Positions 3,771 to 43,847 of a DNA stretch of 50,244 nt are shown here, in pieces (positions within the stretch are counted from its first letter, which is position 1; every line of letters begins with the position of its first letter). This DNA comes from an uncultured Bacteroidales bacterium (GTDB lineage: Bacteria > Bacteroidota > Bacteroidia > Bacteroidales > Bacteroidaceae): contig CACZCZ010000017.1 of assembly GCA_902779845.1 (NCBI GenBank), forward strand, positions 1 to 50,244, written 5' to 3'. Position numbers and translations under genes: made by a program. Under the pieces are notes generated by a model. It did not search any database. It had not been told where the DNA came from and was given only the letters and a program-made list of their open reading frames with translations.

Positions 3771-3820
3771 CGTTATAACGTTATTCCGTCATTCCGTTAT
3801 TCCGAGATTCCGTCATTCCC
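3771..3820. repeat. Intergenic 8-bp quasi-tandem repeat
   Basis: Words close to CGTTATTC and CGTCATTC repeat about six times between the RidA-like stop and the M16 start. Same style as the AT-rich phrases at 24604-24640, 26128-26190 and 36403-36445. Confidence 0.7.
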
Positions 3821-3823
3821 ATA

Positions 3824-5089
3824 ATGTTTCAATCTTTCAATTTAGACAGCGGCCTTCGCGTCATCCTGGCCCCCTCGGCCACCGATGTCGTCTATGCGGG
3901 CATCGCTGTGGCCACCGGCACGCGCCATGAGCTGGACAGCGAGAGTGGCATGGCGCACCTCGTGGAGCACATGACCTTCAAGGGCACCCAGCGCCTCACA
4001 TCCATGCAGATCCTGAACCGCATGGAGAGCGTGGGAGGCGACCTCAACGCCTACACGGGCAAAGAAGAAACCATCTACTATGCCACCTTCCTGCGTCAAC
4101 ACCTGAAACGCGCCATCCCCCTGCTCCTGGACATCGTCTTCAACAGCACCTTCCCCCAGGAGGAACTCGACAAGGAGGTGGAGGTGGTCATCGATGAGAT
4201 CGAGAGCTACAACGACTCACCAGCCGAACTCATCTACGACGACTTCGAAGCCCTCCTCTTTCCCGACCACCCTCTCGGACGCAGCATCCTCGGCAATGCC
4301 GACCGCCTGCGGCAGTACCGCACGTCCGACCTGCAGGCCTTCGCCCGCCGCACCTACAGCCCCGAACGTGCCGTGCTGTTCGTGAAGGGGAATGTGACGG
4401 AAAAGGAAGTAAAGACCCTCTCCCCGCTCCCCCGCCCCTCCCTCGTAAGGAGGGGAGTAATTACCTTTGAGAATGAGATTGCGGATGCCCGCTCAAAACA
4501 TTCTACTCCCCTCCCTACAAGGGAGGGGCAGGGGGGTGGGTCCGTTATATTAAAGAAGCCCGTCCACCAGGCCCATGTCATGCTCGGTTCGCGTGGCTAT
4601 GCCGCCACGGACCCGCGCTACTACGGTCTCTTCCTGCTGAACAACCTGCTGGGCGGTCCAGCCATGAACTCCCGCCTCAGTCTCGCCCTGCGCGAGCGCA
4701 CCGGTCTCGTCTATACCGTGGAAAGCAACCTCACCGCCTACACCGACACCGGCGTGTGGTCTGTCTATTTCGGCTGTGATGCTGAGGATCTGAAGCGCTG
4801 CCTGCGTCTCGTACACCGTGAGCTACGCCGCCTCATCGACCGTCCCCTCAGCCCTCGCGCCCTCAACGCTGCCAAGCAACAGCTCCTGGGACAGCTCGGC
4901 ATCAGCTACGACCATTTTGAGAACGTAGCCCTCGCGATGGGCAAGCGGTATCTCCACTACCACCGCGTCCTCACACCCGTCGAAATCGCCCAATCCATCG
5001 AGGCTCTCACCCCTGAAGACCTTCAATCCATTGCCACTGAAATATTCAACCCCGACCGCCTCACCACCCTCATCTACCAGCCCGAGTAA
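3824..5089 (+). CDS. M16-family zinc peptidase (processing-peptidase type)
   Basis: 421 residues, no signal peptide, so probably cytoplasmic. The inverted zinc motif HxxEH is H45-L-V-E48-H49 (HLVEHMTFKGT), followed by NAYTGKEETIYY and the third zinc ligand region EVVIDEIESYNDSP. This is the small M16 form related to mitochondrial processing peptidase and PqqF-like enzymes; its substrate is not known. Residues about 198-240 are a 40-45 residue insertion (LSPLPRPSLVRRG...TPLPTREGQGGG) made of two inverted copies of a GC-rich palindrome (4417-4543), between the two domains and just before the conserved KKPVHQAHVMLGSRGY. The gene ends only 4 bp before the stop of the convergent CAZyme operon, with no terminator hairpin in between. 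Confidence 0.9.
   Translation: MFQSFNLDSGLRVILAPSATDVVYAGIAVATGTRHELDSESGMAHLVEHMTFKGTQRLTSMQILNRMESVGGDLNAYTGKEETIYYATFLRQHLKRAIPLLLDIVFNSTFPQEELDKEVEVVIDEIESYNDSPAELIYDDFEALLFPDHPLGRSILGNADRLRQYRTSDLQAFARRTYSPERAVLFVKGNVTEKEVKTLSPLPRPSLVRRGVITFENEIADARSKHSTPLPTREGQGGGSVILKKPVHQAHVMLGSRGYAATDPRYYGLFLLNNLLGGPAMNSRLSLALRERTGLVYTVESNLTAYTDTGVWSVYFGCDAEDLKRCLRLVHRELRRLIDRPLSPRALNAAKQQLLGQLGISYDHFENVALAMGKRYLHYHRVLTPVEIAQSIEALTPEDLQSIATEIFNPDRLTTLIYQPE
4417..4543. repeat. Inverted pair of GC-rich palindromic elements in the M16 gene (MITE-like)
   Basis: Left arm 4417-4456 (...CCCCTCCCTCGTAAGGAGGG) and right arm 4506-4543 (CTCCCCTCCCTACAAGGGAG followed by GGGCAGGGGGGTGGGTCC) are near reverse complements over about 40 bp and enclose about 50 bp of AT-richer DNA. 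Each arm has its own small palindrome. The unit looks like a miniature inverted-repeat element whose length keeps the host frame open. Confidence 0.75.
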
Positions 5090-13730: not shown

Positions 13731-15224
13731 TTAATGTTTTTTGTTATCTAAAAGCAGTTCCCGCTGGACAGGTAATGCCACCCCATTGACTGTGATATTG
13801 TTGAAGCGAATATTCTTTCCCACAGCGTGGCTGGCATCATGGTCACGGATGAAACTGGCCGCTAGTTGCGTGGTATCGCCAGAGAAATGGATATTAGAGA
13901 ACTCCACATCATCGATGCCGTTTCCAGGTGCCCGGTTGTATTTCTCGCCAAAGACCACGGCTATTCCGAAAAGGGCCGTCTGTTCCAGCCCTTCCATTCT
14001 TATGTCGTGGAAACGAACATCGCGAACCCAGTTCTTGTCACCACAGGAGAAGTAAAGGGCGGCATTGGTGCGGGCATAGAGGATGTCGCAGTCATGGATG
14101 CGCACACCAAGAAGCGTCTCGCCTGTCTCGGAACGGTCATCGCCGTGAGAGCCGATGTTAACGGGGTGAGCCACATCTGGCCAGAACGTGCAACGGGTAA
14201 CTTCGATGTCCTCACTTCCACCCCAGTACCACCAGCGATGGTTGTAAAGAGCGATGCAATCATCACCCGTGCGCAAGAAGCAGTCCTCGACCTTAACATG
14301 GCGGCAGCACATCAAATCAACGCCGTCGCTCCATGGGCGGGCTGAGAAGCTTTTGATATGGCGAATTCGGATATTCTCGCTTTGACCGCCATAAACAGTA
14401 TAGTGGGCAGGATTCAAGACCGTGATGCCATCTACAAGGACATTCTTCGAGTAGGTAATCTCGATGCCACGCAGGGGATGGTCAAGAATGCCACGCCCTA
14501 TGATGCTGACGTTCTCTGCGTGATCCACGATGAGGCGTGCCTTCACAACAGACCCTGGAGCCAGATAGACAATGCAGTTACTGGGAATCTTGATCTCCTC
14601 GCTCGGCAGGTCCTTCGGACGATGTATGCCAGGACCGAAATAGATGAAACGAGCATTGTTGACGAAAACATCGTGCGAATTCTCACCCTTCCATGTAATG
14701 AGTCGTTTCTCATTTTCATCCAAAGGTGTTAAGCCCCACTGCTCCAAACCCTTTCCGGTGGGGGAGATGGAGGGAGATATGGGATTGGCAAACAAATGCA
14801 GGTTGTGTGTGCGGTCACCCCCAAATTCCACACTGAGATATTCAGGCTTGGTGAGCCTCAGCTCTATGGTCGCATCGTCAATGCGGCTATATTTGATCTT
14901 GCGAGAAGACGGACGGATGACAACGTCGTCACCTGCCTCTTTTCTCTCTTTTTTCCTGTTCTCCTTAATTCTCACCACGACAGCGCCCTCCATGTCAAAC
15001 TCTGCGAATGCAGCTTGTTGGACCTTTTTCAGATCCACATCGCATCGCAGTACCTCTACTTGTTGCCAGTCGATTTTTCCCTCGGCACGCACACTCACCT
15101 CATAGGCTTCAGAGCGATAGGGAGCATCTTTCTCGGGCAGCTGCCACAGGCGCACTTGTGCCGAGGAGCCGGTTGAAGAGAGCAGCACAAGGATAAAGAG
15201 TCGAAGACATGCTTTTGGATTCAT
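13731..15224 (-). CDS. GH28 family polygalacturonase-like enzyme, secreted
   Basis: 497 residues with a signal peptide (MNPKACLRLFILVLLSSTGSSAQ). A beta-sandwich-like N-terminus leads into a right-handed beta-helix with the GH28 active-site set WSDGVDL, RTGDDCIAL and GSHGDD. The RIK motif of classical polygalacturonases is not evident, so the bond cut may be a rhamnogalacturonan or other uronide linkage. Residues ~150-190 (NPISPSISPTGKGLEQWG) look inserted, coded by a diverged CTCCC/GGG palindrome at 14741-14785. Second gene of the operon, 17 bp after the lyase-like gene and 22 bp before the repeat protein. Confidence 0.88.
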   Translation of the reverse strand: MNPKACLRLFILVLLSSTGSSAQVRLWQLPEKDAPYRSEAYEVSVRAEGKIDWQQVEVLRCDVDLKKVQQAAFAEFDMEGAVVVRIKENRKKERKEAGDDVVIRPSSRKIKYSRIDDATIELRLTKPEYLSVEFGGDRTHNLHLFANPISPSISPTGKGLEQWGLTPLDENEKRLITWKGENSHDVFVNNARFIYFGPGIHRPKDLPSEEIKIPSNCIVYLAPGSVVKARLIVDHAENVSIIGRGILDHPLRGIEITYSKNVLVDGITVLNPAHYTVYGGQSENIRIRHIKSFSARPWSDGVDLMCCRHVKVEDCFLRTGDDCIALYNHRWWYWGGSEDIEVTRCTFWPDVAHPVNIGSHGDDRSETGETLLGVRIHDCDILYARTNAALYFSCGDKNWVRDVRFHDIRMEGLEQTALFGIAVVFGEKYNRAPGNGIDDVEFSNIHFSGDTTQLAASFIRDHDASHAVGKNIRFNNITVNGVALPVQRELLLDNKKH

Positions 15225-20430: not shown

Positions 20431-23208
20431 TTATCTCACGACGAATTTCCGTCCGTTCACGATGTAGAGCCCCTTGGGTAAATGACGAGTGACGAATGAT
20501 GAATGACGAGTGTCGCGCTCGAGCTTGCTCGCTTGACCCTTCAAGAATGACGAATGACGAATTTGGCGGCCTTGCAGGTCAAACACTGCGCCAGCCGTCT
20601 CCCCTCCATGACGGGAGGGGTCGGGGGTGGGTCCTCCGATGCCATCGGCGAAGGGGTCGTCGGCAATATAGACATGGATGCGCTGGTGCAGCGGTGTTGA
20701 CTCCTGCAGCTCCTCTTCACCGATGATGGCGGCTTTGGCGGTGAGCTCGTAGTCACCCACTATCGTAGGTGTCCAGCTGCCGAGGGTGCAGAAGAGGAGG
20801 GTGCCTTGGCCGGGGGCGAGGGGGGCGAGGGCTGAGGGTTGAGGGGTGAGGGTGGAGGGTTGGCTGTTGCTGACGCCGAGGGCGGTGTTGGGTACGTCCT
20901 CGGTGCCCACGATGAGGGCCCACATGTCGGCAGGTGCCGTACCCTGGTTCTTGACATAGGCGTAGAAGGTGACCTCTTCGCCGACACGCGGATGGCGGGG
21001 ATGGGTGAAGAGCTCCGTGACGCGCAGGTCGGGGGCCGGCTCAAAGAGGCGCGGCTCGAAGGTCGTGGAGAGGGGCAGATCGGCGCTGGAGGGGCCCACG
21101 CTGATGTTCACCATGCTGGCAGGCATCTCGTAGGCCTCATGCGCTACATCCCACTCGTAGAAGTCCTCGGGGGTGAGGCGGAAGCTGACGCGGCGCGTCT
21201 GGCCCGCAGGAATCATCACGCGCTCGAAGCCGCGCAGCTGGCGCAGCGGCTGCCAGTCGGCAGGGCTAAGCGGCCCCACATAGAGCTGTGCCACTTCCTC
21301 GCCGTCGCGGTCGCCGGTGTTGGTGATATCTACGCTGACGGTGATGGCGAGGTCAGCATGGGATTCGTCTTCGTCGGCATGGCGCTCCACGGAGATGAAA
21401 GGGCCGTAATGGAATGTGGTGTAGCTGAGGCCGTAGCCGAAGGGGAACTGCGGCGTGAGGCCACGGCGCTGGAACCAGCGGTAGCCGCCGCCCCAGTCGT
21501 CGGTGAAGTAGGTGTCGTTCCATTCGGGCAGCTGCTCGTCGCTGACGGGCATGGTCATGGGCAGACGGCCGGCGGGGTTGACGGCGCCGAAGAGGACGTC
21601 GGCGATGCCGTTGCCGGCTTCCTGGCCGCTGTAGAAGGAATAGACGAGGGCGGGGATGTCGGCGATGCAGTCGGCCAGCGACACGATGCCACCGCTCTGC
21701 AGCACCACGACGAGGTTGGGGTTGGCGGCATGGAGGCGGCGGATGAGCTGCTGCTGGATGGCGGGCAGGGCGGTGGTGGTGCGGTCCTGCACCTGCACGC
21801 CGATGATGCTCTCGCCCTCCAGCGTCTTGTCGAGACCTCCGGCGAAGATGACGACATCGGCAGCACGCGCAGCAGCCTCGGCAGCGGCGAAGCCCGAGGT
21901 GTCGTCGCCGCTGATGGCGCAGCCCTGCACATAGGTGGCTTCGGGCACTACGGCGCGGATGCCGACGAGGAGGCTGACGGCGTAGGCGGGTTGTGTCTCG
22001 CTGCTGCCGAAGCAGTTGAGGTTCTCGGCAGCGGCATTGGGACCGATGACGGCAATCTTCAAGGATGAGGCAGCGTCGAGGGGCAGCAGACGGCCCTCGT
22101 TGCGCAGGAGCACGACGGCCTTGGCCGTAGCCTCGCGGCAGAGGGCACGGTGCTCGGTGTTATCCACCAGCGCGGCGGAGTCGGCACAGGCGGGCTGCCA
22201 GCCCATCAGGCCCATGGCATATTTGGTGAGCAGCACGCGCGCCACAGCGGTGTCGAGGTGCTGCTCGGTAATCGTGCCAGCCTCCAAGGCCTTGGGGAGT
22301 TGTTGTTTGTAGTGGGTGGAGCCCATGCAGACATCGGTGCCCCCCACGAGCGAGGCGGGCCCGTCCTTGACGCCACCCCAGTCGGAGATGACGGTGAAGG
22401 GGAAGCCCCAGCGATGGCGCAGGATGTCGGTGAGCAGATGGCGGTTGGCGGCGGCCTGCACGCCGTTGACGAGGTTGTAGCTGGACATCACGCTCAGGGG
22501 CACGCCCTCCTGCAGGGCGGTGCGGAAGTTGATGCCGAAGAAGCCCATGAGGTCGCGCTCGGCGATGATTTCGTCGCATGTCTTGCGGTAGGCTTGCTTG
22601 CCCTCAATCTCGAAGTGCTTGAGGCACGCCATGACGGGCATCGACTGGATGCCGCGCACGATGTACTTGCCAATCTGTCCGCTCATGTAAGGGTCCTCGC
22701 CCGCACTCTCAGCGGTGCGTCCGCCACGCGGGTCCAGGCAGAGGTCGATGCAGGGTGCGAGGGCCACATGCTGACCGGCAGCCCAGAACTCCTCGCCCAT
22801 GGCATGACCGAGGCGCAGCAGCAGCTGGCGGTCCCAGAGGGCTGCCATGGCGATGCCGGTGGGGAAGGAGGTGTAGCCCTGGCGGTGTACGCCATGCGGG
22901 CCGTCGGACATCAGCCAGCCGGGGATGCCCAGCTCCTCATCGTCGGCCATCGCAAAGAGTGTCTTGCCCGTGAGCTGCGCCACCTTCTGCGAGGGGGACA
23001 TCAGAGAAAGATAATAGGGGACAAACTCAGACTCCTCAGCAGACCCCTCAGACTCCTCAGCAGACCCTCCCCCCTGCCCCTCCCTTGTAGGGAGGGGAGT
23101 GGTTACCTGTGCGAATGAGGGTACAAGAGGTGTAACGGACAAGAAGATGAGGAATATTCCTAATAAGAAAGAATGATTGTTTGCTATAGTCTTCATATTC
23201 TTCTTCAT
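20431..23208 (-). CDS. GH3 family beta-glycosidase, secreted
   Basis: About 925 residues. ATG at 23208 follows an AGGAG with good spacing and opens the signal peptide MKKNMKTIANNHSFLLGIFL; upstream ATGs are less well placed. The TIM-barrel carries the nucleophile Asp in TVISDWGGVKDG and the GTDVCMGS loop; the alpha/beta sandwich and an Fn3-like domain (TNTGDRDGEEVAQLYVGPL) follow, then a CARDB-like Ig domain (PDLRVTELFTHPRHPRVGEE). GH3 enzymes release terminal beta-glucose, xylose or related sugars. The tail GLYIVNGRKFVVR matches that of the 40615 protein. It carries two palindromic insertions (23063-23101 just after the signal peptide; 20597-20634) and phrase repeats (TLTPQPSALAPLAPGQG; 'RHSSFVTRHLPKG'). 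Convergent with the regulator and 82 bp downstream of tyrS. Confidence 0.9.
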   Translation of the reverse strand: MKKNMKTIANNHSFLLGIFLIFLSVTPLVPSFAQVTTPLPTREGQGGGSAEESEGSAEESEFVPYYLSLMSPSQKVAQLTGKTLFAMADDEELGIPGWLMSDGPHGVHRQGYTSFPTGIAMAALWDRQLLLRLGHAMGEEFWAAGQHVALAPCIDLCLDPRGGRTAESAGEDPYMSGQIGKYIVRGIQSMPVMACLKHFEIEGKQAYRKTCDEIIAERDLMGFFGINFRTALQEGVPLSVMSSYNLVNGVQAAANRHLLTDILRHRWGFPFTVISDWGGVKDGPASLVGGTDVCMGSTHYKQQLPKALEAGTITEQHLDTAVARVLLTKYAMGLMGWQPACADSAALVDNTEHRALCREATAKAVVLLRNEGRLLPLDAASSLKIAVIGPNAAAENLNCFGSSETQPAYAVSLLVGIRAVVPEATYVQGCAISGDDTSGFAAAEAAARAADVVIFAGGLDKTLEGESIIGVQVQDRTTTALPAIQQQLIRRLHAANPNLVVVLQSGGIVSLADCIADIPALVYSFYSGQEAGNGIADVLFGAVNPAGRLPMTMPVSDEQLPEWNDTYFTDDWGGGYRWFQRRGLTPQFPFGYGLSYTTFHYGPFISVERHADEDESHADLAITVSVDITNTGDRDGEEVAQLYVGPLSPADWQPLRQLRGFERVMIPAGQTRRVSFRLTPEDFYEWDVAHEAYEMPASMVNISVGPSSADLPLSTTFEPRLFEPAPDLRVTELFTHPRHPRVGEEVTFYAYVKNQGTAPADMWALIVGTEDVPNTALGVSNSQPSTLTPQPSALAPLAPGQGTLLFCTLGSWTPTIVGDYELTAKAAIIGEEELQESTPLHQRIHVYIADDPFADGIGGPTPDPSRHGGETAGAVFDLQGRQIRHSSFLKGQASKLERDTRHSSFVTRHLPKGLYIVNGRKFVVR
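20597..20634 (-). repeat. GC palindrome copy in the GH3 C-terminus
   Basis: GTCTCCCCTCCATGACGGGA followed by GGGGTCGGGGGTGGGTCC. Encodes GGPTPDPSRHGGE in frame between the Ig domain and the 'VFDLQGRQI' tail. Confidence 0.75.
23063..23101 (-). repeat. GC palindrome copy at the mature N-terminus of GH3
   Basis: CCCCTCCCTTGTAGGGAGGG with the C-rich flank (G-run on the other strand); nearly identical to 4506-4543 on the opposite strand. Encodes TPLPTREGQGGGS, the same peptide as in the M16 insertion. A 17-18 bp direct repeat (GACTCCTCAGCAGACCC) lies next to it. Confidence 0.8.
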
Positions 23209-23247
23209 TATCATTTCTCCTTTAGATGTCATGTCTTGTCAGGTAAT

Positions 23248-23289
23248 CACTTCCCTCCCTAAAGGGAGGGGCAGGGGGGAGGGTCTTCC
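23248..23289. repeat. Intergenic GC palindrome between GH3 and tyrS
   Basis: ACTTCCCTCCCTAAAGGGAG, then GGGCAGGGGGGAGGGTC, one base from the tyrS stop codon. Same family as the copies inside genes. It may also end tyrS transcription. Confidence 0.75.
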
Positions 23290-34517: not shown

Positions 34518-35354
34518 ATGGTAAGTTTATTCATCCATTGGAACCCGGATATATTCGCGTTCACCATCGGCTCGTTCGGCGTTCGCTGGTACTCGCTCTG
34601 CTGGTGCATCGGCCTGCTGCTCGTATTCCTGTTGGAACAACGGCTGTTCAAGGAACAGAAGATTCCCGACGAGAAGTTTGAGCCGCTGTTCCTGTACTCG
34701 TTCCTGAGTATCCTCATCGGCGCACGTCTGGGGCACTGTCTCTTCTATGAGCCGGAGTATTTCCTGTCCTCGCCCCAGCACATGCTGGAGATGATTGTCC
34801 CCGCCAAGATCGGGGCCGACGGCTCGTGGCATTTCACGGGTTACACGGGACTTGCCTCGCATGGCGGCACCATCGCCTTCATCTTCGCCCTGTGGCTCTA
34901 TTCACGGAGGATGAAGATTCCGGTACTCACCGTCTGGGACAACATCGGCATCGTGACACCGCTGTGTGCTGCCGCCATCCGCATGGGTAACCTCATGAAC
35001 TCCGAAATCATCGGCAAACCCACGGATGTACCCTGGGCCTTCATCTTCGAACAGGTGGACAACGTCCCCCGCCACCCGGGGCAGCTCTATGAGGCGTTGG
35101 CCTACTTCGTGTTCTTCATCGTGGGCTGGCTCATCTACCGCCGTCACCCGGAGCGCGTGGGCAGCGGCTACTACTTCGGCTACTGCATCTTCACCATCTT
35201 CACGTTCCGCTTCTTCATCGAATACACGAAGGAGGTACAGGTGTCGTTCGAGAACGGGATGCTCTTCAATATGGGACAGCTGCTGTCTGTGCCCTTTATC
35301 CTGGTGGGTGGATATGCGATGTGGCGAGGAAGGAAAAGGACGGTTGAGGGTTGA
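34518..35354 (+). CDS. lgt: Prolipoprotein diacylglyceryl transferase
   Basis: 278 residues, about seven membrane helices. The Lgt signature R-x-G-N-x-x-N-x-E-x-x-G is present as RMGNLMNSEIIG, preceded by SHGGTIAF and followed by HPGQLYEALAYF. It attaches diacylglycerol to the lipobox cysteine of prolipoproteins in the inner membrane, the first step for lipoproteins such as the DacB-like and 44795 products here. Starts two bases after ychF ends. Confidence 0.96.
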   Translation: MVSLFIHWNPDIFAFTIGSFGVRWYSLCWCIGLLLVFLLEQRLFKEQKIPDEKFEPLFLYSFLSILIGARLGHCLFYEPEYFLSSPQHMLEMIVPAKIGADGSWHFTGYTGLASHGGTIAFIFALWLYSRRMKIPVLTVWDNIGIVTPLCAAAIRMGNLMNSEIIGKPTDVPWAFIFEQVDNVPRHPGQLYEALAYFVFFIVGWLIYRRHPERVGSGYYFGYCIFTIFTFRFFIEYTKEVQVSFENGMLFNMGQLLSVPFILVGGYAMWRGRKRTVEG

Positions 35355-35385
35355 GGGGTTATGGTTGAGAGTTTCTGGTTTATGG
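35340..35385. repeat. Phrase repeat at the lgt-porin junction
   Basis: Words close to GGTTGAG/GGTTATG repeat across the lgt stop into the porin leader. Confidence 0.55.
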
Positions 35386-35390
35386 ATAAA

Positions 35391-37910: not shown

Positions 37911-38587
37911 AGCTGATGGAAGAACCCTACACAAAGCCCACCCATGCAGGTTTCTCCACTCCCCGCAGTGTAGAATCCGCGCTTCTGCTGGCAGCCCGTT
38001 GGCTGTCATCCATCTTCCGTCCCGAATTTATGCCACTCATGGGCTTCGTGGGCCTGTTCATGTTCACCTACCTGAGCCTCCTGCCCTGGGCCTTCAAGGG
38101 AGCCGTACTGTCGCTGGTGTTGCTGGGCACCGTGCTACTGCCGCGCTGGACCATCCGTTTCTGGCGCAAGGCCCGCGGTTGGGAACGTCATCTCCTGCGC
38201 CTGCGTGAGAACCGCCTGTTCCCCTACCTCATCTACATCCTCTACTACGCCTTCACGCTGCACATGCTGAACCGCTTTCACCTGCCCGTGTATATGTCGG
38301 GAATCCTCATCAGCTCCCTGCTTATCCAGGGCTGCGGCTTCCTCATCAACCTACGCTGGAAGATTTCCATGCACAGTGCAGGCGCCGGCGGTGTCATCGG
38401 AGCGCTGGCGGGCTACAGCATCCTCTTCTACTTCAATCCCATCGGCTGGCTCTGCCTGTGCATCTTCATCTCAGGCCTCGTCGGCAGTAGCCGTATGCTC
38501 CTGCGCCAGCACGACCTCTGGCAAGTCCTCGCCGGCACCCTTCTCGGTGTCGTCTGCGGCTTCCTTGGCATCATCATCCCTTGGTAG
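37907..38587 (+). CDS. PAP2-like integral membrane protein
   Basis: 226 residues with about six hydrophobic helices. The motif ISMHSAGAGGVIGALAGY resembles the central S-x-x-H-x-x-G motif of PAP2 phosphatases, but the flanking KxxxxxxRP and SRxxxxxHxxxD motifs are not clear, so it may be a non-catalytic relative. A gene of this kind next to rpoN is common in Bacteroidales. Overlaps rpoN by four bases. Function unknown; lipid phosphate handling is a guess from the fold. Confidence 0.65.
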   Translation: MKLMEEPYTKPTHAGFSTPRSVESALLLAARWLSSIFRPEFMPLMGFVGLFMFTYLSLLPWAFKGAVLSLVLLGTVLLPRWTIRFWRKARGWERHLLRLRENRLFPYLIYILYYAFTLHMLNRFHLPVYMSGILISSLLIQGCGFLINLRWKISMHSAGAGGVIGALAGYSILFYFNPIGWLCLCIFISGLVGSSRMLLRQHDLWQVLAGTLLGVVCGFLGIIIPW

Positions 38588-38625: not shown

Positions 38626-39987
38626 ATGAGACAGTTCAGAAAGAGTGCATACATCCTCGTCCTCACCACGTTGCTGGCAGCGTGCGGCACCAGCCAAAAG
38701 GCACGCCGCGACTACGCCCCCGATGCCACACATGCCGCGCTGGACAAGGGCTGGCCGGAGAGGAAGACCGTGCCTGTCAAGGAATATGTCGGCAAGGACC
38801 TGGGGCCATTTCCGCCCTCCATCACAGACCGCATCGACAGCCTTCTGCTGGCGGCAGACACGCTGTTGCAGCGCACGCAGCTGGGCCTGCACATCGTAGA
38901 TCTCAACACCGGCGCAGTGCTCTATGCCCGCAACGAGCAGCAGCGAATGCGCCCGGCTTCAACGGAGAAGGTGGTCACGGCCATCGCCGCCCTCGACCGT
39001 CTCGGGCCGTCATATCTGCTGGCCACACGCCTGCTGACCACGGCAAAAGTTTCTGGCGGAACGCTGCAGGGCGACCTGTATGTCCAAGGTGTCATGGACC
39101 CCTTGCTCTCCACGGCCGACGTGCAAGCCCTTGCCGCACAACTGAAGAGCGCAGGCATCCGCCGCATCGCCGGACGCCTCATGGCCGATGCCTCGTTTAA
39201 AGACACCGATGAATACGGCTGGGGCTGGTGCTGGGATGATGACAACCCCACGCTGTCACCCCTCCTCGTGGGTGGCAAGCCCGACCTGATGGCTGCGCTG
39301 CGCAAGGCCCTCTCCAAAACCGGCATCACGGTGACCAAGGGCACGGCCACAGGCACGGCACCGGCCTCGGCACGCTGTCTGGCAGCCTTGCAACGCCCGC
39401 TCACTGACGTCCTCCAGCCGATGATGAAGGAGAGCGACAACCTGTGTGCCGAAGCGGTGTTCTATCAGTTAAGATCGGCACCCAGTTCCTCCCCTAATGG
39501 GAAGGAAAGGCTGGCGCAAGGGAAACATTATAGCAGGAATATAGTTGCCAAGGTTGTTAGAGATGTCATTGAGCGTGCCTATGCGCTGCAAAGCCTCTCT
39601 TCCGTCACGGGAGAGGGCGGCGGTGGCTCCTCCGTCATTGCCGACGGCAGCGGCCTCTCGCTATACAACTACCAGACCCCTGAGACCTTCACGCGGTTGC
39701 TCGCCTATGCCGCCGCCCGCCCCGACAGCATCTTCAACCCACTGCTGGCAGCGCTCCCCATCGCCGCTGTCGATGGCACGCTGAAAAAGCGCATGGCCGG
39801 CACGCCGGCAGCAGGCAATGTACGTGCCAAGACGGGCTCCGTCACGGCGGTCTCCACCCTCGTAGGCTACACCACGCAGCGCTCCACAGGCCACCTGATT
39901 GCCTTCGCCATTATGAACCAAGGCGTCCAGCGCATGGCCGACGGCCGCGCGCTACAAGATAAGATCTGCATTCTGCTCAGTGAATAG
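38626..39987 (+). CDS. dacB: D-alanyl-D-alanine carboxypeptidase/endopeptidase, PBP4 type, lipoprotein
   Basis: 453 residues. Lipobox LAAC closes a short signal peptide ([20 protein letters not shown]), so it is lipid-anchored. Penicillin-binding motifs: S-x-x-K in [11 protein letters not shown] in [13 protein letters not shown] and K-T-G in [11 protein letters not shown]. It trims peptide stems and cross-links in peptidoglycan. Two in-frame insertions sit between SDN and KTG: '[14 protein letters not shown]' (~286-302) and [13 protein letters not shown] (~322-335), both coded by CTCCC/GGG-type palindromes and both in places where family members run straight on (the second just before [16 protein letters not shown]). 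Confidence 0.93.
39486..39526 (+). repeat. Diverged palindromic insertion 1 in dacB
   Basis: TTCCTCCCCTAATGGGAAGG with a purine-rich tail; encodes [14 protein letters not shown]. Confidence 0.5.
39593..39633 (+). repeat. Palindromic insertion 2 in dacB
   Basis: CTCTCTTCCGTCACGGGAGA followed by GGGCGGCGGTGGCTCC, the same layout (palindrome, then G-run, then CTCC/GTCC) as 4506-4543 and 20597-20634. Confidence 0.65.
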
Positions 39988-43716: not shown

Positions 43717-43746
43717 ACAACCCTTTCACACACATTCTACTTTTTT

Positions 43747-43833
43747 ACAACGAATTACACTAATTAGACGAATTCCTTAAATAGCTATCTAAGAGGCACC
43801 TTGACAATTCGTAAAATTAGTGTAATTCGTTGT
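43747..43833. repeat. Long inverted repeat
   Basis: ACAACGAATTACACTAATT (43747-43765) is perfectly repeated in inverse at 43815-43833; with two mismatched bases the arms extend to about 30 bp (43747-43776 and 43804-43833) around a 27-bp loop. It lies between the convergent 40615 and 43917 genes, ahead of the terminator. Confidence 0.85.
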
Positions 43834-43847
43834 CTAAAACAAGAAAA

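Follow-up and report, generated by a model that had tools for sequence, protein, structure and literature searches.

How does the same GC-rich palindrome come to lie in frame within conserved genes that are unrelated to one another? The question is raised by a 50,244-nt stretch of an uncultured Bacteroidales genome (contig CACZCZ010000017.1, GCA_902779845.1; the window), in which the initial annotation recognised a family of palindromic elements that keep the reading frame and lie in loops or near termini. That description is supported here; the annotation's observation as a whole is partly confirmed, and its interpretation partly supported. The genome that holds the window (G000) is a draft of 2.92 Mb in 47 contigs, ~86% complete, and the named records closest to it are MAGs of uncultured Prevotellaceae/Bacteroidaceae, several of them from gut or rumen. 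Gene calls are home-made and the compared genomes are drafts.

Palindromic copies in the window

The motif CTCCCTN{2,8}AGGGAG occurs three times in the window against an expectation of 0.04, and 0 of 100 shuffles reach three. A covariance model of the family, built from 40 copies and run on the window with filters off, returns four strong matches (E 2e-16 to 1.6e-12). Two of them are the inverted pair that had been claimed in an M16 peptidase-like gene (3824-5089, plus strand; PF00675 at residues 13-157, PF05193 at residues 169-354). The left arm (4423-4468, minus strand, E 1.6e-12) has a type A tail (GTAATTACC) and carries its G-run and GAC outward, and the right arm (4495-4541, plus strand, E 6e-16) has a type B tail (ACATTCTAC) and encodes HSTPLPTREGQGGGS. 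The model leaves a 26-nt spacer between the arms (4469-4494), with ~50 nt separating the two hairpins. As single-stranded DNA the pair folds into one long hairpin of -40.3 kcal/mol (z -7.1). In a structure model with a mean pLDDT of 88.7 (28-sequence alignment) the insert falls below 50 at residues 203-226, a low value that may in part reflect the variable alignment.

The other two strong matches are an in-frame copy in the GH3 gene (23064-23110, minus strand, E 2e-16, QVTTPLPTREGQGGGS), which by eye directly follows a signal-peptide-like N-terminus, and a copy between tyrS and GH3 (23239-23284, plus strand, E 4e-13), which adjoins the tyrS stop codon and bears out an intergenic copy previously placed at 23248-23289. 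Together they form a pair that brackets the intergenic region along with the start of GH3. Two copies had been claimed in GH3; the first is this strong match, but the second is only a degenerate one near the C-terminal end (20599-20634, plus strand, E 5e-4). The peptide TPLPTREGQGGGS is indeed common to two unrelated proteins, M16 and GH3. Other proposed members did not hold up as well: the copy at 163-182 is weak, a short related hairpin that lacks the G-run tail (164-180, E 0.015) whose membership is doubtful; dacB (Peptidase_S13, 38626-39984) has only a hairpin stub (39488-39505, E 4.4); the GH28 gene (13734-15188) gives no model match up to E 5; and the RidA-like copy is not a member by model score. 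In the sufS part, a 12-residue peptide resembling those of the family can be seen by eye, but it lies beyond the model's reach. The remaining model matches in the window (E 0.1 to 5) are at chance level. Pfam confirms M16, GH3, RuvB-SufS and TyrS.

Several neighbouring features were also recorded. RuvB and SufS are one fused ORF at 192-2831 on the minus strand (PF05496/PF05491, then PF00266); at this junction the sister genome G061 has a REP-like pair of the second sub-family described below, and the two genes are apparently separate, by eye. Degenerate short-period repeats (e.g., GAGGGTT, CGTTATTC) lie at 2814-2855, 3771-3818, 20813-20875 and 35339-35387, and similar repeats occupy some of the family's slots in sister genomes. 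Directly behind a long ORF, positions 43735-43845 hold an imperfect inverted repeat of unrelated sequence, with 40-nt arms that are 85% complementary and 31 nt apart.

A dispersed family with a conserved outer edge

Across the 2.9 Mb of G000 the model gives at least 151 matches at E <= 0.1, with 150 of 1162 first-look candidates scored; all copy statistics for this genome rest on the 150 matches listed, which lie on 27 of the 47 contigs. The core pattern has 35 + 38 = 73 strand matches, corresponding to 43 distinct places (a perfect hairpin matches both strands), and the reversed control pattern has none. By profile and genome scan alike, the palindrome family is genuine and far in excess of chance. 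With REPs it shares a short hairpin that is dispersed in high copy number.

Each unit is ~47 nt long and consists of a hairpin and, on its outer side, a G-run that ends in GTC[T/C]. This G-run and GTC[T/C], ~10 nt from the stem, is the conserved edge: beyond the terminal GTC, on which the 146 of 150 anchorable copies were aligned so that the GTC itself is fixed by construction, conservation is lost within ~3 nt. On the inner side it fades over about 10-20 nt, and the inner tails are of two main types, with a second sub-family that has tails of its own (130 of 150 copies parsable). Reading the alignment, we found neither a GTAG/GTGG nor a CGTC tag at the base of the hairpin. At 38121-38278 of contig C13, four same-strand units follow one another every 37 nt, and the fourth pairs outward with the copy at 38353.

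Of the 36 other genomes of the genus, 21 have the looser core pattern, as does 1 of 24 genomes outside it. The strict long pattern occurs in G000 alone among 295 genomes of the order, a sample without congeners of G000. No description of the family was found in the portions of the open-licence PMC literature consulted.

Outward pairs at gene ends and in protein loops

The copies follow an orientation rule. Among the 150 matches listed, 49 neighbours lie less than 500 bp apart, and these comprise 44 outward-facing pairs ('-+'), five '--', no '++' and no inward-facing '+-'. The sisters G061 and G062 have at least 149 model matches each, of which 70 and 80 listed copies were used; they show 22 and 26 outward pairs, 0 and 1 inward pairs (the latter 440 bp apart) and no other order. 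Inverted doublets, the mark of REPINs, are thus the main close arrangement among the copies listed in all three genomes (44/49, 22/22 and 26/27). By eye, a few short pairs in different genes seem to have similar spacers, and in other pairs the spacer is native DNA.

Of the 150 listed copies, the 5' ends of genes account for 42, the 3' ends for 40 and the interior of ORFs for 61; seven have no adjacent called gene. Copies placed at random in the window would give 5.3%, 2.2%, 85% and 7.3%. The outer edge falls between -10 and +3 nt of a stop codon in 29 cases (0.44% if placed at random in the window) and 60-115 nt past a start codon in 27 (1.7% expected). Both flanks lie in one called ORF for 87 of the 150 copies; the 83 that could be located and translated comprise 63 sense and 20 antisense copies, none with a stop codon, as expected inside ORFs, and TPLPxREGQGGGS, TPSLIGRAGGES and LPSLTGGVGGGS are frequent among their peptides. 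In-frame palindromic insertion into unrelated proteins, as in the Rickettsia-type elements, is therefore a property of the family. Twelve of the 44 pairs have both outer flanks inside one called ORF. For nine genes that hold or adjoin such copies, the proteins identified above the NCBIfam curated cut-off are UvrA (two pairs), HemW, a CbiE-CbiT fusion, Pth and FeoB, and those below it are Mfd (partial) and the citramalate/isopropylmalate-synthase-like, beta-galactosidase-like and AmgK/RapZ-like proteins. The FeoB pair (13:21380) counts as intra-ORF only by virtue of a gene call that begins 123 residues before the FeoB match, and it may be N-terminal or intergenic.

Outer edges that adjoin stop codons or sit just within start regions could mean that the copies are regulatory hairpins selected at gene ends, acting as terminators, mRNA stabilisers or translation-coupling stems. 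REPs of E. coli located at stop codons affect translation. REPs near ORF 3' ends are also known in other bacteria, according to the sections of PMC3733652 consulted. The large share of copies internal to ORFs speaks against such a role, as do the sister genomes, which at several sites differ in the presence or sequence of the element although the flanks are otherwise conserved, and we regard selection for regulation as a most improbable explanation of the copies.

Sites with and without the element

Judged by comparison with relatives, the copies are insertions. In the AmgK/RapZ-like gene the 118-nt pair is absent from all 11 relatives that gave a match, most of which have a short loop there. 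No element is present at 1:57802 in G062. At 7:65646, G061 has a native coding segment (EDTYVFQLIDAIADL) without arms, and G000 and G062 have the segment between two arms; native coding DNA can therefore lie inside a pair. The N-terminal insertion at the rplY-pth junction is missing from G011, which has another hairpin-like sequence behind its rplY stop; the intergenic hairpin enclosed at this junction is common to several species (all by eye). The enclosure of native DNA by the pairs at 7:65646 and rplY-pth argues against simple REPIN insertion. No target-site duplication, of the kind that accompanies MITEs, is evident by eye at the sites inspected, where the flanks are too diverged for a firm test.

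These comparisons bear on the two most sceptical readings. That the segments are ancestral protein sequence, the explanation which the initial annotation named as fatal to its own, was rejected: it is contradicted by relatives without the element at the tested sites. Draft MAGs in which identical arms could confuse assemblers might in principle generate such structures, but G000, G061 and G062 were assembled separately and have common sites, in frame, and the units are short (about 120-130 nt). Site sharing was compared only in copy-bearing regions, which biases the shared fraction upward. The chance that the family reflects either artefact or ancestry is close to negligible.

Spacer inversion and arm likeness

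The M16 spacer is inverted between G061 and G062, within flanks of 97.6% and 95.3% identity; the orientation in G000 is that of G061. Among 32 comparisons of orthologous pairs, 27 spacers are forward, two inverted, two uninformative owing to very different spacer lengths (6:95713 and its G061/G062 counterpart) and one was dropped. Both inverted comparisons involve M16 of G062, such that the two orientations are seen between two species at one locus. The comparison that was dropped, a second candidate inversion at 27:30589, rests on a 115-nt flank match between unrelated genes.

Intragenic invertons exist in Bacteroides, and an in-frame spacer inverted between two sisters, together with tails of both types found on both sides at internal sites, is what would be expected if the pairs were sites of a dedicated DNA invertase that switches protein variants. 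A single inverted locus beside 27 comparable pairs that are forward fits this poorly, and the arms, as dispersed repeats of imperfect identity, do not amount to a single recombination site. We therefore hold an invertase to be very unlikely.

Within pairs, the arms resemble each other more than re-dealt partners do, although partners tend to share a sub-family, which inflates the likeness. Core identity is 0.880 against 0.779 +/- 0.015 in G000 (39 of 44 pairs usable), 0.876 against 0.821 +/- 0.013 in G062 (25 of 26) and 0.879 against 0.824 +/- 0.020 in G061 (20 of 22), where the observed value merely equals the top of 200 re-deals.

Other palindromes in the same slots

Several slots are filled differently in relatives. 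The 1:169714 slot in G061 holds a TGGTCAAA-type repeat instead, and other palindromes occupy the slots 19:28088 (G061) and 5:74246 (G062). Both pth sites of G018 carry an AT-rich inverted pair, with 15-nt perfect arms, and G016 has a divergent palindrome in pth that resembles the family. In the CbiE/CbiT loop, which holds a pair in G000, perfect palindromes were found in three of the seven relatives parsed (arms of 23 nt in G061, 9 nt in G017 and 8 nt in G018), and no palindrome of 7 nt or more in G062, G016, G015 or G011; G003 was left out.

The M16 loop was surveyed more broadly, with 97 of 110 loci parsable into 87 distinct linkers. Arms that match perfectly over 12 nt or more occur in 12 of these 87 and in none of 522 equal-length windows of the same genes, though the control windows represent conserved domain and the loop was picked for its pair in G000, making 12/87 an ascertained figure. 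The fairer figure comes from the linkers without REP1-like sequence, of which 6 of 75 have such arms; 50 codon shuffles of the same 75 give a mean of 0.06 and a maximum of 1. That inverted repeats of unrelated sequence recur in these loops suggests a process that is not bound to the REP family. Together with the bracketing of native segments and intergenic regions and the inverted M16 spacer, these repeats extend the findings beyond what was initially annotated.

A general excess of short perfect palindromes was considered as well and dropped, with two of five sequence sets showing none. The window has 5 against a Markov expectation of 2.55 +/- 1.43 (no clear excess) and L246-L258 has 4 against 3.12 +/- 1.96 (no excess); contig C15 of G061 (9 against 1.85 +/- 1.53), L259-L290 (20 against 7.50 +/- 3.16) and L291-L323 (18 against 6.88 +/- 2.80) exceed expectation, and these three excesses may be ordinary terminators.

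The main rival to a mobile element is template switching alone, in which no transposase is involved, quasi-palindrome template switching during replication makes all the inverted repeats in the slots, REP-like or not, by copying at short range, and families are later copied between sites. The unrelated repeats of the M16 loop, the different palindromes that fill the CbiE/CbiT loop and the three sets with surplus palindromes all point in this direction. It would also explain pairs around native DNA, and alike arms with an inverted spacer are the two marks, arm homogenisation and spacer inversion, reported for template switching in yeast genes (PMC8604942, in the sections consulted). On the other side, 150 or more copies of one family on 27 contigs need long-range copying, short-range copying should give both orders where the inverted pairs of G000 are outward only, and the window and L246-L258 lack a clear palindrome surplus, which elsewhere may be due to terminators. 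On balance we consider this account unlikely.

Relation to known elements

The initial annotation drew a parallel with the Rickettsia palindromic elements, which is fair, but REP/REPIN sequences are a closer known kind. Like the family in G000, the Rickettsia elements are palindromic, in frame and tolerated in unrelated proteins; they differ from it in length and host and probably in sequence, and we know of no paired bracketing among them. They are mentioned in PMC3733652, which, like the other sources compared here, is represented by those of its sections that were consulted.

That paper and PMC6006769 already describe in-frame intragenic REPs and REPs at 3' ends. REPINs, known from Pseudomonas and E. 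coli, are inverted doublets with a spacer less conserved than the arms that form one long hairpin (PMC3116915), and the family in G000 shares these features and the multitude of short hairpins. Unlike them, it has the end tag GAC(T/C)C...G(A/G)GTC instead of GTAG, many of its copies lie in ORFs or at their very ends, no flanking RAYT was found, and several doublets enclose native DNA. The GTAG/CGTC-tagged intragenic REPs come closer in placement, being in frame in unrelated conserved genes, with dual inserts in uvrA and many copies near termini or close to ORF 3' ends (PMC3733652); the family differs in tag and organism group, and shows both bracketing of an intergenic region by one pair and spacer inversion, neither of which was found for these REPs in the sections consulted.

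The REPs of TnpA-REP subclasses 2.4 and 2.6 also occur in Bacteroidetes, with in-frame REP inserts in the tnpA-REP genes of subclass 2.4 and atypical hairpins in subclass 2.6 (PMC6006769). Variable in-frame inserts between the HuH and Y motifs, as described there, can be seen by eye in several RAYT-like ORFs here, but no copy of the family stands beside the six RAYT-like ORFs of G000. Inverted repeats within coding genes are further known as the coding palindromes of Nematomorpha mitochondria (PMC6649704) and from the yeast cases (PMC8604942), where, unlike in G000, they are not described as a dispersed repeat family in the sections consulted.

Proposed mobility and remodelling

RAYT-like hits correlate with copy number across 37 genomes of the genus (Spearman 0.41, p 0.011, uncorrected for kinship or completeness), and at least 10 core strand matches are found in 9 of 20 RAYT-positive against 1 of 17 RAYT-negative genomes. 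Within about 500-600 nt of the six RAYT-like ORFs of G000, among them one at C7:43824-45128, REP-like sites were found at none; these ORFs are weak profile hits in a genome that is 86% complete, and a missing gene is possible. RAYT genes as neighbours of the copies, in the manner of a REPtron, were accordingly discarded as a candidate. Since none of these ORFs is flanked, the mobilising enzyme is one that we infer, and a HUH (TnpA-REP/RAYT-like) enzyme would be the putative mover of the palindromes.

Template switching accounts for the alike arms, the flipped spacer and the unrelated palindromes, and fails to account for the dispersal and the outward rule. We therefore favour, and consider probable, a combination in which the copies belong to a non-autonomous mobile palindrome of the REPIN type that survives at permissive slots and is later reshaped by template switching or recombination. 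The ~47-nt unit would spread largely as outward-facing inverted doublets, with survivors just past stop codons, early in genes (the first ~25 codons) and in flexible loops of proteins, where a copy would last only if in frame; such insertions would presumably be neutral for the host proteins. Polymerase template switching or recombination may then act on the long inverted arms; this would keep the arms alike and could flip the spacer to give a new in-frame linker. Template switching as the cause of the arm likeness and of the M16 inversion is thus the putative second step.

A broader proposal may be put forward more tentatively. Certain protein loops and gene ends of this lineage could repeatedly capture inverted repeats, whatever their sequence, with species-specific filling, a templated process that keeps the arms complementary and spacer flips that give in-frame linkers; we see this as conceivable, though somewhat doubtful. 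Were it true, such loops would evolve via palindrome turnover and not point mutation. If slots of this kind hold, they would provide a route for large in-frame steps in the loops of UvrA, Mfd and Pth, and would tie REPIN biology to template-switch mutagenesis in bacteria. The empty, filled, replaced and flipped states at one site make the fate of intraprotein palindromes comparable across relatives.
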